From a virus, in IMG/VR virus record IMGVR_UViG_3300006919_000489, positions 1-22,845 of that record: 22,845 bases of DNA; one strand, 5' to 3'. The notes under the pieces are model-generated. The model ran no database searches. It worked only from the letters and a program-made list of their open reading frames with translations, and was not told the origin of the DNA. Shown here piece after piece: positions 5,861 through 13,190 of this stretch (position 1 is the first letter of the stretch; every line of letters starts with the position of its first letter). The translations under genes were made by a program, and so were the position numbers.

Positions 5861-5868
5861 GATAAATA
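5861..5868 (+). promoter_or_regulatory. Late-type promoter octamer GATAAATA on the plus strand
   Basis: GATAAATA, four bases (AGTA), then TGTTGGCAACA, a small hairpin, and AGGAG before the ATG at 5894. It has the same octamer-N4-TGT layout as the minus-strand late promoters and follows directly after a terminator. It is the only plus-strand copy, and suggests that the 5894-7459 genes are expressed with the late class. Confidence 0.65.
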
Positions 5869-5893
5869 AGTATGTTGGCAACAAGGAGAAACA

Positions 5894-6571
5894 ATGAAAA
5901 TACACACAAAATATTTCGGCGACGGCCCAAGACAATCAGTTCCTAAAGATATAGACTTAGTTACACCACATTGTATTGATATACCTAAGTGTTGGGATTA
6001 TGATATGAACAAAAGTTTTACTAAACCTGTTAAACTTATACCATTTAACATTCAAAAAGCACCAAATGGTGTTGATAACTGGGTTTATTTTGATTTAGAC
6101 ACAGAAGATTGGATATATGAATGGTTAAACAGAATAGTGTTAGAGTATCATCACAAAGTAGGCACATTTCCCACAGCATTAGCCAAGTTAGAGCAAACAA
6201 TCAATAAAAAAGGCACATACGATAGATTAAACAGTTTCAATACAGTACTAACTACTTGTAGTGGATTGGTGTTAAACCGCAAAAGAGCAACTGAAATAAA
6301 GTTTACTACCAAACAGTTAGCAGATATAGAAAAAGTGTTTGACATAGCAACTTATGTGTTACGAAACACCAGTGCTAAGAATCATATTACTGGAGAGATT
6401 GAAAAAAGTGTGCTAAACACAAAAGATATTGGCTATCACAGAACTACCAAACTGCCCAATGAAGACATTATGCGTATATACTTTACTAAAAACACAAGAC
6501 TAACTATTGCGGCGGATGGTCAAACATACGACAACACACCGCAAACAATATTATTTGGTTCTAATGCGTAA
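5894..6571 (+). CDS. Hypothetical protein, 225 aa, first gene of a probable late plus-strand operon
   Basis: An AAGGAG site 6 bp upstream supports the ATG. The product (MKIHTKYFGDGPRQSVPKDI...) has no recognised family. It contains an acidic aromatic stretch (WVYFDLDTEDWIYEWLNRIVLEYHHK), a segment KGTYDRLNSFNTVLTTCSGL, and KFTTKQLADIEKVFDIATYVL, which looks helical. No signal peptide or membrane helix. It is preceded by a late-type octamer and not by the sigma70-type promoter of the cassettes to its left, and overlaps the next gene by 8 bp. Confidence 0.8.
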   Translation: MKIHTKYFGDGPRQSVPKDIDLVTPHCIDIPKCWDYDMNKSFTKPVKLIPFNIQKAPNGVDNWVYFDLDTEDWIYEWLNRIVLEYHHKVGTFPTALAKLEQTINKKGTYDRLNSFNTVLTTCSGLVLNRKRATEIKFTTKQLADIEKVFDIATYVLRNTSAKNHITGEIEKSVLNTKDIGYHRTTKLPNEDIMRIYFTKNTRLTIAADGQTYDNTPQTILFGSNA

Positions 6572-7643: not shown

Positions 7644-7858
7644 TTTTTATCCTTTTTTCCAAATATTCTGTCCCAACCTTCGGCATAAGCATCTTCATTG
7701 GCATTTCTACGAGCACTTCCTTTGCCGCCGTGTGTTTGACCCAGTTTGCCACTGAAGCCTTCTGCTTTATCACGCATCTGTTTAAGATGTGGATTGTTGT
7801 TTATAATCTTTTCATTGCGAACCCATTCTTTACTGCCTTTTTTAGGTATATCTGTCAT
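7640..7858 (-). CDS. Small phage protein with HGGKGSARR motif, 72 aa
   Basis: Linked to the TerL gene by an ATGA overlap. The product is polar and basic: PKKGSKEWVRNEKI at the start, GQTHGGKGSARRNANEDAYAE (around residues 40-60) and a WDRIFGKKDKK end. From memory, short proteins ending with a HGGKGS..R......Y...WD.IF pattern recur beside structural genes of marine phages; their role is not established. Absence of a membrane segment and the position next to TerL suggest a virion-assembly or packaging accessory, which is inference. Confidence 0.75.
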   Translation of the reverse strand: MTDIPKKGSKEWVRNEKIINNNPHLKQMRDKAEGFSGKLGQTHGGKGSARRNANEDAYAEGWDRIFGKKDKK

Positions 7859-9087
7859 CTCATACTCCTTCCTGTGCTACGCCTTGTGGGCATATATTTT
7901 TCTGTTCTGTTGTTGCGTATTGGCCAAGTTCTTTCTATATAGTAACCCAAAGCATCTGTGATATGGTCATATCCACTGCTTTTATCCGGCTGTCTTGTGC
8001 CTTCTTTGTATGTCATTTTGATTAAGCCTTCTCTAAGTTGTTTACACTTGGGGTCTATGTACAGTTTGTGTTGATTCTCATTGTTACGCAATCTGCTGTT
8101 TACTGCGGCTATACGCTCTGCTACAGGCGGATTTATACTGCCTGTTCGCACATTAAAGCCGTGTTGTTGTAATATAAGGTGGTCTGTGATACCTGTTGAA
8201 GCAGTAGTTCGCCTCACACCACTGGCATCGGGGTATACAATAACACCTCTTTTTGGATATCTGCGTTTTATCTCTTCACACATCTCATTGGTGTTTGAAC
8301 TGTATATGGTTATTTCATCTATTACCCAAGCATTCTCTCCATCTTGAATACACACTACAGCACTCATTGGATCTATGTTAAAGTCCATTCCTATGTGTAG
8401 TGGTGCTGTGGGCGGTATTTCTGTCATACTCTTTATGTTGTGTTCAGTAAAGGAATAGTAACATACACCACTGTAACTCACAAACTTGGCTTCATACTCT
8501 TGTTCAAATGTTCTTTCGTCTAAATCCTGTTTGGCTTGGATTATTTCGTTTTCATCAACATTGCCACCATCAAGAGTGGTAAACTGCCAACTGTTCCAAT
8601 CATTTTCACCGCCTTGACTGTATAAGTCATAAAACCAGTTTCTGCCTTTGGGGGAACCAATAAACAATGCGTGGCCACCGGTGTCACTGAGTGTGGGACG
8701 CAAAACTTGATACCAAGTATCACTGTGGATATCGGCACACTCATCCATTACTATAAAGTTGTATTTGGCACCTCTAAGTGCTTCGCGGTTATCAGCACTA
8801 CGAATATATATAATGCTACCATTTTTGAGAACTATGTGTAAATCACTTTCATTTACTCGTTTTATCCAGTTTACCAAATGTAAACGGTTTTTCAGTTCGT
8901 CCCAAATAACCTGCTTTGCTTGTCGATATGTTGGTGCTACATACAGACATTTGGTATTGGGCATTCTGCTAAACTTGGCAAGTTCATTTATACTTAAAAA
9001 ACTTTTACCAAAACGACGCCCTGCCGCGACTACTCTAAATCGACTGTCACTGCTACTGATAGTTTTTTGTGGATCAGTGAGTTTCAC
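7855..9087 (-). CDS. terL: Terminase large subunit (packaging ATPase-nuclease)
   Basis: The 410-residue protein has the complete two-domain plan. ATPase: Walker A GRRFGKS (residues 23-29), Walker B FIVMDECAD (111-119) with the acidic pair, and the coupling motif GSPKGRN (144-150). Nuclease (RNase H-like): GMDFNIDP with D235, VYPDASG with D287, and DHITDALGYY with D378. It cuts concatemeric DNA and pumps it through the portal into the prohead. It is short for TerL (T4 gp17 is about 610 residues) but all core motifs are present. It overlaps the preceding 62-aa gene by 14 bp and the following one by ATGA, and is probably transcribed from the late-type promoter at 9297. Confidence 0.96.
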   Translation of the reverse strand: MKLTDPQKTISSSDSRFRVVAAGRRFGKSFLSINELAKFSRMPNTKCLYVAPTYRQAKQVIWDELKNRLHLVNWIKRVNESDLHIVLKNGSIIYIRSADNREALRGAKYNFIVMDECADIHSDTWYQVLRPTLSDTGGHALFIGSPKGRNWFYDLYSQGGENDWNSWQFTTLDGGNVDENEIIQAKQDLDERTFEQEYEAKFVSYSGVCYYSFTEHNIKSMTEIPPTAPLHIGMDFNIDPMSAVVCIQDGENAWVIDEITIYSSNTNEMCEEIKRRYPKRGVIVYPDASGVRRTTASTGITDHLILQQHGFNVRTGSINPPVAERIAAVNSRLRNNENQHKLYIDPKCKQLREGLIKMTYKEGTRQPDKSSGYDHITDALGYYIERTWPIRNNRTEKYMPTRRSTGRSMR

Positions 9088-10802: not shown

Positions 10803-10930
10803 TATATGATTATTCCAATAACAAATCCTGCTACTAATCCGCCTACAGCATAGTAATATGCCATATGACGCTCACTTAGTTCAAAACCGTCTTTGATAGT
10901 GTAATATATCTGTTTATTCTTCCATTTCAT
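10802..10930 (-). CDS. Small single-pass membrane protein, 42 aa
   Basis: An ORF too short for usual cut-offs lies between TerS and the 102-aa gene. ATG 10930 is preceded by GAGGAAG inside the 3' end of terS (17-bp overlap), and its TAA forms TAATG with the next start, so spacing on both sides is that of a real coupled gene. The product begins MKWKNKQIYYTIKDGFELSE and ends with a hydrophobic segment from about residue 25 to the C-terminus (YYYAVGGLVAGFVIGIII). Possible roles are holin, lysis regulator or membrane anchor; none can be proved. Confidence 0.72.
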   Translation of the reverse strand: MKWKNKQIYYTIKDGFELSERHMAYYYAVGGLVAGFVIGIII

Positions 10931-11309
10931 TGTTTTCTTCCTCATTCCAAGGCAGTATGTCACTGCTGTTTTTGTCTTGTGGATTCTCCGACATTGAGAG
11001 CCATTGTTTGGAAAGCCATATCATCATAACTCTGTCGCCATTGAGAGCAGTTTCCAACATCTTTTGGCGTAACTTGCGTTTAGTGGTTTGCCTTGCTTTT
11101 GTGTATAAATCCGCGAAGTTGTTGCGTAATGTGGTTTCTGCTACTCCATAATACTCACTGAAGTCTTTCCAAGTACTAAACAAACAAGCCATTTGATAGA
11201 ACTCATCCTCGGGTATAACAGTTTTATCACGGCCCACTATTCTGCCTGTGACTGTTTTTTCACCTCGTTTTATGTTTTTTACTTGATATGGTGGTTTCTC
11301 ATTTGCCAT
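10914..11309 (-). CDS. terS: Terminase small subunit-like DNA-binding protein
   Basis: The 131-residue protein has the organisation of small terminases: a helix-turn-helix-like region around residues 30-70 (EDEFYQMACLFSTWKDFSEY then GVAETTLRNNFADLY), a basic helix KARQTTKRKLRQKM, and the typical end-of-core pattern LETALNGDRVMMIWLSKQWL, followed by a disordered acidic tail. TerS binds the packaging start site and loads TerL. Here TerL is not adjacent: a 42-aa gene, a 102-aa gene, three opposing cassettes and a membrane protein lie between. A GGAG site is 8 bp upstream. Confidence 0.8.
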   Translation of the reverse strand: MANEKPPYQVKNIKRGEKTVTGRIVGRDKTVIPEDEFYQMACLFSTWKDFSEYYGVAETTLRNNFADLYTKARQTTKRKLRQKMLETALNGDRVMMIWLSKQWLSMSENPQDKNSSDILPWNEEENNEMEE

Positions 11310-12398: not shown

Positions 12399-12453
12399 AG
12401 TTATATTAAATCTTTTTAGTTTTAAGTTTATACAGCAGGTTGCCACTACTGTT

Positions 12454-12469
12454 TGTAACTTGCGTTACA
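12454..12469 (-). repeat. Start-site hairpin TGTAAC-GCAA-GTTACA
   Basis: A perfect 6-bp stem with GCAA tetraloop (a GNRA-type loop on the minus strand) begins four bases after TATAAATA at 12474-12481, so it would form the very 5' end of the transcript for the 12398 gene. Confidence 0.65.
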
Positions 12470-12473
12470 TTTT

Positions 12474-12481
12474 TATTTATA
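12474..12481 (-). promoter_or_regulatory. Late-type promoter octamer TATAAATA ahead of 12398 gene
   Basis: TATAAATA-AAAA-TGTAACGCAA on the minus strand. TGTAACGCAA is shared with the TerL-operon promoter at 9297, and the N4-TGTA arrangement with those of both RNA candidates. Confidence 0.75.
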
Positions 12482-12490
12482 CAAAACTCA

Positions 12491-12529
12491 AAAAAAAGAG
12501 CAGTTTTTTAAGTAAAACTGCCCTTTTTT
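12491..12529. terminator. Bidirectional intrinsic terminator
   Basis: GCAGTTTT/AAAACTGC (12500-12507/12514-12521) with loop TTAAGT, flanked by seven A at 12491-12497 and six T at 12524-12529, so it works in either direction. On the minus strand it ends the RNA candidate that starts at 12675; on the plus strand there is no gene to its left that needs it. Confidence 0.85.
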
Positions 12530-12548
12530 AGTATAGTTAAAAATAAGG

Positions 12549-12675
12549 TGTAGAAGGCAACAAGAACTATGATATAAATGTAAACAGTGGAACCACTATC
12601 TACGAAGTTTGGCAACTTTGGATTTAATACATATTGTATTGTTTCTTTTAGGGGAAACTAAAGTTGCCTTCTACA
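12549..12675. ncRNA. Structured RNA candidate 1 (multibranched, 13-bp closing stem)
   Basis: A perfect 13-bp inverted repeat, TGTAGAAGGCAAC (12549-12561) and GTTGCCTTCTACA (12663-12675), encloses four hairpins: 12586-12597 (AGTG/CACT), 12603-12620 (7 bp with one wobble, TGGC loop), 12626-12640 (AATACA/TGTATT) and 12641-12658 (GTTTC/GAAAC), the last two directly adjacent. No ORF is present. On the minus strand, GATAAATA-AAAA precedes TGTAG, and transcription would end at the 12491-12529 terminator after about 185 nt. On the plus strand, an 18-base copy of the cassette leader lies just upstream (12531-12548) and wobble pairs in two hairpins favour that strand. Orientation is unresolved. Confidence 0.7.
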
Positions 12676-12679
12676 TTTT

Positions 12680-12687
12680 TATTTATC
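12680..12687 (-). promoter_or_regulatory. Late-type promoter octamer GATAAATA ahead of RNA candidate 1
   Basis: GATAAATA-AAAA-TGTAG on the minus strand; the spacing from octamer to TGTA equals that at 12944 and 12474. No gene follows it, only the structured RNA. Confidence 0.65.
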
Positions 12688-12696
12688 ACATAAAAG

Positions 12697-12722
12697 AAAA
12701 CCCGTTACGGATAACGGGTTTT
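12697..12722. terminator. Bidirectional intrinsic terminator
   Basis: CCCGTTA/TAACGGG (12701-12707/12712-12718) with a CGGA loop, flanked by AAAA and TTTT, which extend the stem to 11 bp. It separates the two RNA candidates and can stop transcription from either side. Confidence 0.85.
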
Positions 12723-12756
12723 CACGATAACCGAACATTTCTGTTCAATATTTAGG

Positions 12757-12782
12757 AAAAATCATCTATGTCATTAGATGAT
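12757..12782 (-). terminator. Intrinsic terminator of RNA candidate 2
   Basis: An 8-bp stem ATCATCTA/TAGATGAT (12761-12768/12775-12782), loop of six, with a T-run on the minus-strand side only (five A at 12756-12760 on the given strand). The plus-strand side has no T-run, so the signal is directional. Confidence 0.75.
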
Positions 12783-12939
12783 AAAATGGCACATTATTCA
12801 AAAACCTTGGTCTTTGTACAAGTGCTGTAACGACTATTGCTTATTCGAGTGAGTGTCTTCAACGCCGACCACAGGCTCAAACACTCTTGGCTACTGTCAT
12901 TATAGAATCAATGTTATGTTGATGACAACAGCCGTTACA
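12757..12939 (-). ncRNA. Structured RNA candidate 2 (three-way junction, own promoter and terminator)
   Basis: On the minus strand, GATAAATA-TTAT is followed by a domain closed by TGTAACG/CGTTACA (12939-12933/12832-12826). Inside are a 12-bp helix (12933-12922 with 12900-12889) containing two adjacent G-U pairs, which would be mismatches on the other strand, and a GAGTGT/ACACTC arm (12886-12881/12856-12851) with an inner GCC/GGC. The unit ends in ATCATCTA/TAGATGAT followed by five T, a terminator polar for the minus strand, giving about 184 nt. It has no ORF and does not fit a tRNA. It lies downstream of the holin-like gene. Confidence 0.75.
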
Positions 12940-12943
12940 ATAA

Positions 12944-12951
12944 TATTTATC
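12944..12951 (-). promoter_or_regulatory. Late-type promoter octamer GATAAATA ahead of RNA candidate 2
   Basis: GATAAATA-TTAT-TGTAACGG on the minus strand, located in the 26-bp gap after the stop of the holin-like gene. Confidence 0.75.
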
Positions 12952-12965
12952 TGTTTTGTGGTTTT

Positions 12966-13190
12966 TTAGGGCGATAACAGTTCAACTACCACTGTTATGA
13001 GTGTAGTTACCACAAGTGCCATAATAGTCCATATTCTTGTGTCCAATCTGTCTAATCTTGTGGTGAAAAATGATCTGTTATCTTTGACTTCGTCTTCTAA
13101 TCTGTGTATACAGTCGTGAATATGCTTTACATCTGTTTCCATCATTATCATTTTGCTATTCAAATGCTGATTAGTAATATTTTTAGCCAT
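12966..13190 (-). CDS. XhlA/holin-like protein: coiled coil plus C-terminal membrane helix, 74 aa
   Basis: Residues 10-50 form a charged heptad pattern (MMETDVKHIHDCIHRLEDEV), followed by LDTRIW and one hydrophobic helix (about 53-71, IMALVVTTLITVVVELL) at the C-terminus. This is the shape of XhlA-type cell-lysis accessory proteins and small membrane-anchored phage proteins; exact membership cannot be proved. The ATG overlaps the preceding 46-aa ORF by 8 bp. Position after the tail fibres fits a lysis module, although no endolysin is seen in this window. Confidence 0.75.
   Translation of the reverse strand: MAKNITNQHLNSKMIMMETDVKHIHDCIHRLEDEVKDNRSFFTTRLDRLDTRIWTIMALVVTTLITVVVELLSP

Follow-up and report, generated by a model that had tools for sequence, protein, structure and literature searches.

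A predicted tandem pair of structured RNAs with T4-type late-promoter boxes, and a candidate antisense target, in a group of uncultured marine phages

Background

What does a tailed phage encode in about 520 bp that hold no gene? The window analysed here, the whole 22,845 nucleotides of IMG/VR record IMGVR_UViG_3300006919_000489, contains such a region at 12447-12965, in which a sequence-only reading had placed a stand-alone structured RNA driven from a phage late promoter on the minus strand, with a possible function as a small regulatory RNA (sRNA), a decoy or a packaging RNA. Comparison with relatives reveals two elements in this region, RNA1 and RNA2, each with its own promoter box. RNA2, the wider RNA family and a complementarity to the leader at 5861-5888 lie outside the interval and the account of that first reading, and no report of such RNAs was found in the literature. 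Coordinates of all features are collected in Table 1.

Results

RNA1 and its fold

Most of what had been proposed for RNA1 is confirmed, namely a late-promoter box, the absence of an ORF or tRNA, and the lack of a known RNA family. The box GATAAATA at 12951-12944 (minus strand) is followed by N4 and TGTA, and the minus strand from 12951 to 12757 reads GATAAATA, TTAT and TGTAACGGC, ending in a final hairpin followed by TTTTT. In T4 the late box occupies positions -13 to -6 (PMC2988020), so that, if this layout holds here, the expected first base of the RNA1 transcript is G12938, one base inside the 5' end of P1. None of the frames of 12447-12965 accommodates an ORF, the ARAGORN search for tRNA and tmRNA was negative, and Rfam 15 gave no family at gathering score in the window. 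A scan of 12400-13000 with E up to 10 likewise listed nothing at gathering score and no pRNA, and eleven homologous loci had no Rfam match, pRNA included.

The minus strand of RNA1 folds at -55.5 kcal/mol (z = -4.4, with none of 200 shuffles equally good), better than the plus strand (z = -2.7). The exact three-way junction with stems of 7, 12 and 6 bp did not survive refolding: the proposed 12-bp P2 has a probability of ~0.015, and P1 is instead 14-15 bp long, with a probability of at least 0.98 for every pair except the outermost. The hairpin formerly called P3 is present, as hairpin II; its loop is UGGU in the window, not UGGC, and reads UGGC in L004 and UAGC in G003, while RNA1 of G002 has no hairpin II. 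The idea of a terminator specific to the minus strand stands in part, as TTTTT follows the hairpin at 12782-12761 on the minus strand only and the position of this hairpin is kept in relatives; however, it is A+U-rich with 2 G-C pairs and is absent from the list of a terminator scan that required at least 3.

Two candidate readings of RNA1 segments were tried and rejected. A tRNA-like interpretation of the P4 region (GTTCAAAT, ...GCCA) failed in ARAGORN, and in L011 a plain hairpin takes the place of this region; for the invariant UGCCAUUUU as antisense to AAAUGGCA start sites, the sites are present and no consistent target was found. A sigma-70-like TTGTCA-N18-TATAAT with 11 of 12 matches lies inside RNA1 at 12928-12899 (minus strand) and has no obvious conservation in relatives.

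Table 1. Features of the RNA region, the candidate target and the packaging genes in the window
Feature	Position	Strand	Basis or remark
Late-promoter box of the 225-aa gene	5861-5868	+	
UUGGCAAC, proposed RNA2 target	5875-5882	+	Adjoins Shine-Dalgarno AAGGAG (5883-5888)
225-aa gene, proposed RNA2 target	5894-6571	+	
Large terminase (TerL)	7855-9087		Window gene
Putative small terminase (TerS)	10914-11309		Recognised by eye and place, no profile
Third box TATAAATA	12474-12481	-	Leader of 118-aa ORF
RNA2	12490-12675	-	3' end approximate, inferred from terminator 12529-12492
Terminator-like hairpin and U-run downstream of RNA2	12492-12529	-	Terminator scan
RNA2 P1 3' arm GUUGCCUUCUACA	12549-12561	-	Fold and covariation
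RNA2 loop-I hairpin AAGUU-GCCA-AACUU	12605-12618	-	Carries candidate pairing sequence GUUGCCAA
RNA2 P1 5' arm UGUAGAAGGCAAC	12663-12675	-	Fold and covariation
RNA2 late-promoter box GATAAATA	12680-12687	-	
Hairpin GAAAACCCGUUAUCCGUAACGGGUUUUC between RNA1 and RNA2	12696-12723	.	Terminator-like on minus strand
RNA1, stand-alone structured element	12757-12939	-	Fold z -4.4, covariation, no ORF
RNA1 P5, terminator-like hairpin and U-run	12757-12782	-	CCUAAA after U-run in relatives
RNA1 P4, GCAC...GUGC, then invariant CAUU	12789-12825	-	Alignment, folds, covariation
RNA1 P1 3' arm CAAUAGUCGUUACA	12826-12839	-	Fold and covariation
RNA1 hairpin II (formerly P3), loop UGGU	12851-12886	-	Folds of relatives
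RNA1 P1 5' arm UGUAACGGCUGUUG	12926-12939	-	Fold and covariation
RNA1 late-promoter box GATAAATA	12944-12951	-	All homologues with [G/T]ATAAATA at same place
Short protein, hydrophobic C-terminus	12966-13190		Neighbour of RNA region; ORFs without assigned function also nearby

Homologues and compensatory changes

Homologues of RNA1 were found in ten records representing ~7 diverged forms, and a pattern scan found none beyond this set; the corresponding scan for RNA2 had no match. Single-sequence folds of the RNA1 forms agree on P1, internal hairpins, P4 directly after P1, and then the terminator-like hairpin. Because a MAFFT alignment of whole RNA1 followed by RNAalifold misaligned the arms and gave 6 pairs, anchored arms were aligned without gaps, those of P1 and P4 in RNA1 being set by promoter offset and conserved anchors. 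The closing stems of RNA2 were located by complementarity, with 8 of the 10 rows anchored by the following C-rich end (rows L014 and L177 have no downstream CC anchor).

The sequence-only reading had staked its stems on compensatory changes in homologues, and these were found. Across seven forms of RNA1, 12 of 22 pairs are changed on both sides with the closing stem P1 and hairpins P2 and P4 kept, and 93.4% of cells are paired, compared with 78.5% in shuffled and at most 50% in slid alignments; none of 500 shuffles reached the observed covariation. The counts for P2 lean towards structure, since its arms were picked from visible hairpins in four forms only. For P1 of RNA2, 97.5% of cells are paired in ten forms and 36 cells are double-changed, against 70% paired when shuffled and at most 53% when slid. 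This pattern indicates that the structure of both RNAs is kept by selection.

The tandem region and a promoter-anchored family

The 127-nt core of RNA2 folds with z of -6.9, and further along the minus strand the leader of the 118-aa ORF contains GUGGCAAC at 12446-12439. With a box each, ORF-free sequence and terminator-like hairpins, RNA1 and RNA2 are predicted to be stand-alone noncoding transcription units, and judging from folds and covariation together they are very probably real stand-alone structured RNAs.

They belong to a larger family. A closing stem, defined by a score of at least 12.5 and by running from the first transcribed base and closing 50-170 nt later, starts at 47 of 433 distinct [G/T]ATAAATA sites, compared with 1.75 in dinucleotide shuffles, and in 36 of the 47 cases the stem arm has an offset of 4 or 5 bases from the box. 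The family comprises stand-alone RNAs of the RNA1 and RNA2 types as well as 5' leaders, for example of terminase genes; its mean z of -4.2 over 52 elements is biased because the elements were chosen for having a stem. Many of these RNAs carry a GCCA or UGCC loop on stems of differing sequence, and some a UGGC loop.

Boxes of the GATAAATA type lie upstream of most late genes in the relatives, preceding the portal, putative small terminase, tail and other ORFs, and the window has 10 late boxes where 4.8 are expected. By their TATAAATA-like sequence and position they are classified as putative T4-type late promoters. An 8-bp TATAAATA-like box is shared with the late promoters of the T4 gp55/gp33/gp45 system, with no -35 element described. 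Marine T4-like cyanophages have the late box NATAAATA (PMC2984593). Unlike in T4, the box here is mostly GATAAATA, often with TGTA after 4-5 bases, and the genomes are of ~27-30 kb. A gp55-type sigma factor, which would also mark a T4-type late promoter, was not detected: the gp55 profile (phrog_234) found the T4 positive control and had no match in 22 records, several of which are fragments.

Several other recurrent elements were noted in the leaders. Closed-stem leaders before terminase-type genes share GGAGGAAACUGUU (L144:8879, L159:7135, L151:9539, L156:5315, L131:7430), which is a strong Shine-Dalgarno sequence, and no consistent ORF occurs within the structure. The conserved hairpin segment GACGANUGGYCUCCGA (L005:6945, L007:1382, L135:916, L155:5943, L161:2631, L175:5026, L176:838 on the minus strand, and others) is found only 3' of late boxes, apart from one copy at a contig end, and has the look of a separate RNA motif. 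The leader of the putative small terminase gene (11353-11310, minus strand) holds a hairpin-like element, ACAGTA...ACTGATTTACAGGAG, that recurs in most relatives.

The phage group

The window terminase is up to 99% identical to relatives on uncultured IMG/VR contigs. The closest named terminase records are those of Pelagibacter phages HTVC111P, HTVC112P and HTVC026P and of Phage DSL-LC06, at 44-46% identity with HTVC026P first, and the portal protein is 24-25% identical to its closest named records, from HTVC111P, HTVC112P and DSL-LC06; these phages are thus distant relatives of the window phage. The RNA region had no DNA match in the phage collection searched, and a search for the host through the portal gave no match among 84,980 species genomes.

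Related contigs G004, G005, G006, G008, G009 and G019 (L193-L202, L221-L222, L226-L228) are apparently complete, with terminal repeats. The complete genome size is put at ~27-30 kb from the terminal repeats or concatemeric make-up of several contigs in the group. G005 is concatemer-like with a 27.35-kb unit whose copies are partly out of register (65% ungapped identity). PHROGs scans of G009 (25 of 69 families listed) and of one G005 unit revealed virion, packaging, methyltransferase and acetyltransferase families, with no replication or transcription genes among the families listed. The DNA polymerase A profile had no match in the 22 records, several being fragments, and the profile for single-subunit RNA polymerase was run without a positive control. 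Because T4-type late boxes are combined with no recognised replication or transcription genes or gp55, it is a possibility, not a result, that these phages depend on the late transcription of a T4-like helper.

A candidate target of RNA2

The GUUGCCAA segment at the GCCA-loop hairpin of RNA2 is complementary to UUGGCAAC, which lies on the opposite strand in the 225-aa gene's leader, the clearest of the candidate targets. Among the genomes, GGCAAC occurs 13 times in leaders (1.17 expected) and its complement GTTGCC 17 times in the RNAs (1.44 expected); in other leaders, a part of the hits fall on start codons (ATGGCAA), unlike the sites used for the 225-aa leaders. Within the 225-aa family, GGCAAC is kept in five leaders that are orthologous or more distantly related and otherwise dissimilar.

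A further observation comes from G003, where RNA2 reads GUUGCUAA: UUAGCAAC was predicted beforehand for the orthologous leader and then found there. This leader reads CUUUUGUUAGCAACAAAAGGAG, with 11 contiguous bases complementary to G003 RNA2, and its duplex energy is -16.9 kcal/mol with its own RNA2, compared with -7.8 to -11.5 for the other five; the RNA1 loop of G003 is altered likewise, from UGGC to UAGC. The match is good but not decisive, because its chance probability is ~5%, as estimated from 4-5 differences in the 30-base leader. This intermolecular compensatory change is one evolutionary event, repeated in the close relative L315.

Permutation of RNA seeds and leaders with one genome per subgroup gave p = 0.0002, and within clade A p = 0.57, both on lists that were hand-curated after the motif had been seen, a source of bias, and with shared ancestry ignored. 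A less biased comparison of own and foreign targets over all start regions of 22 genomes gave p = 0.067. The best site in this comparison is the 225-aa leader for the window and G003 and lies elsewhere for most genomes, and in the window it runs through the P1 3' arm of RNA2, not the loop. UUGCCA is also conserved in some genomes that have no clear leader partner. L139 and L166 carry an RNA2-type element directly within the 5' UTR of a gene that has weak similarity to the 225-aa family (E ~3e-4, 24% identity), an arrangement that links this element to the gene family in cis too.

The 225-aa protein of the window has no Pfam match above cut-off and no fold match in PDB (best E 3.3), and the BFVD entries that its structural model (pLDDT 73, moderate confidence) resembles are all uncharacterised proteins of phages. 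A different complementarity was seen in a second clade (G004, G019, L181, L125, G017, L277, L278), which has UGAGCUCC in the RNA and, in most members, GGAGCUCA in the leader or Shine-Dalgarno sequence; in G004, G019 and L181 there is a second pairing, between UUGCCAUU and AAUGGCAA, and both sites come in parallel, not antiparallel, order.

Discussion

The elements themselves, their boxes, the conserved base pairing and the leader complementarity with one compensatory change were computed directly; we infer from these that both RNAs are transcribed and that RNA2 forms a duplex with the leader, and likewise the direction of regulation and the role of RNA1. RNA1 would be made late in infection from its T4-type late promoter as the first of two tandem RNAs. 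The RNA2 hairpin would present GUUGCCAA for pairing with UUGGCAAC beside the Shine-Dalgarno sequence of the 225-aa mRNA, and a duplex of at least 8 bp at this leader would block ribosome loading and reduce translation. The target-like UGGY loop of RNA1 could pair with the GCCA loop of RNA2, making RNA1 a sponge or co-regulator. Because the test over all start regions was weak, antisense control of late mRNAs through their leaders by RNA2 is put forward tentatively, a little short of an even chance. A role of RNA1 as sponge or partner of RNA2 is doubtful, if conceivable. A late antisense regulator RNA2 with RNA1 as its partner or sponge is the best explanation overall, and we consider it about evenly balanced between right and wrong. 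Among the functions first suggested, the sRNA option is favoured and a packaging RNA is unlikely.

As in trans-encoded base-pairing sRNAs, each element is a short structured noncoding RNA with its own (here predicted) promoter and terminator, and a short loop is complementary to the ribosome-binding region of a separately encoded candidate target mRNA. Unlike these sRNAs, RNA1 and RNA2 have no Rfam match, follow T4-type late boxes, start their closing stem at the 5' end and lie in tandem, with loops that are complementary to each other; no chaperone is known here.

Among the alternatives, it is unlikely, though less so than the others, that the GCCA-loop and GACGANUGGYCUCC hairpins are sites for an RNA-binding protein of the phage, a helper or the host, with the leader match being secondary. 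Retention of the GCCA or UGCC loop on stems that change in sequence would fit protein recognition, as would the presence of GACGANTGGNCTCC in 11 distinct contexts (in 10 it follows a box at 37-118 nt, and the remaining copy is at a contig end) and the occurrence of the motif without an obvious target, whereas the leader change in G003 mirrors that in RNA2, and the words enriched in leaders and in RNAs are complementary, not identical.

An improbable reading is that RNA1 and RNA2 are untranslated 5' leaders or spacers of longer late transcripts with a role in stability or termination in cis, as suggested by similar closed-stem elements that terminase genes, among others, have in their 5' UTR and by the third box with the 118-aa ORF downstream; against it, each RNA has its own box and terminator-like hairpin within the ORF-free region. 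We regard as equally improbable that they act as decoys or regulators against host or helper-phage RNAs in translation, decay or defence. The pairing motif is indeed conserved beyond genomes with a phage leader partner, and the genomes look reliant on outside factors, but the one compensatory change between RNA and target concerns a leader of the phage itself.

A DNA-level feature such as an origin, a cos/pac site or a recombination site, in which inverted repeats with compensatory changes also occur, is very improbable given that the position of the stem is tied to the promoter box, that folding is stronger on the minus than on the plus strand, and that the terminator has a polarity. Least probable of all is a packaging RNA of the phi29 pRNA type, which RNA1 resembles in size class, in its closed 5'/3' helix, in lying a few kb from terminase genes and possibly in loop-loop complementarity (UGGC/GCCA within one RNA in L014 and L128/L133 and between RNA1 and RNA2 in L004, with UAGC/GCUA between these two in G003), but from which it differs by the presence of two unlike RNAs per genome, of TerL and a putative TerS, and of mRNA-leader relatives, and by the lack of pRNA architecture and of any sequence or covariance-model match.

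Conclusions

In its fullest form, the antisense explanation would describe a three-member circuit in which RNA2 is the antisense RNA, RNA1 a sponge that mimics the target, and the late mRNA leaders the third member, all co-evolving by compensatory changes in tailed phages of ~27-30 kb that carry virion and packaging proteins, have no recognised replication or transcription genes, and use late promoters apparently designed for a T4-like helper's sigma factor; as a whole this circuit is speculative and rather improbable. The RNAs would represent a previously undescribed family of noncoding RNAs in phages, for which comparative support is strong, across a group of uncultured marine phages. The proposed pairing is precise and testable, with a natural compensatory double change, and may provide a handle on the control of small phages whose late promoters are of the T4 type although no late sigma factor is recognisable in them.
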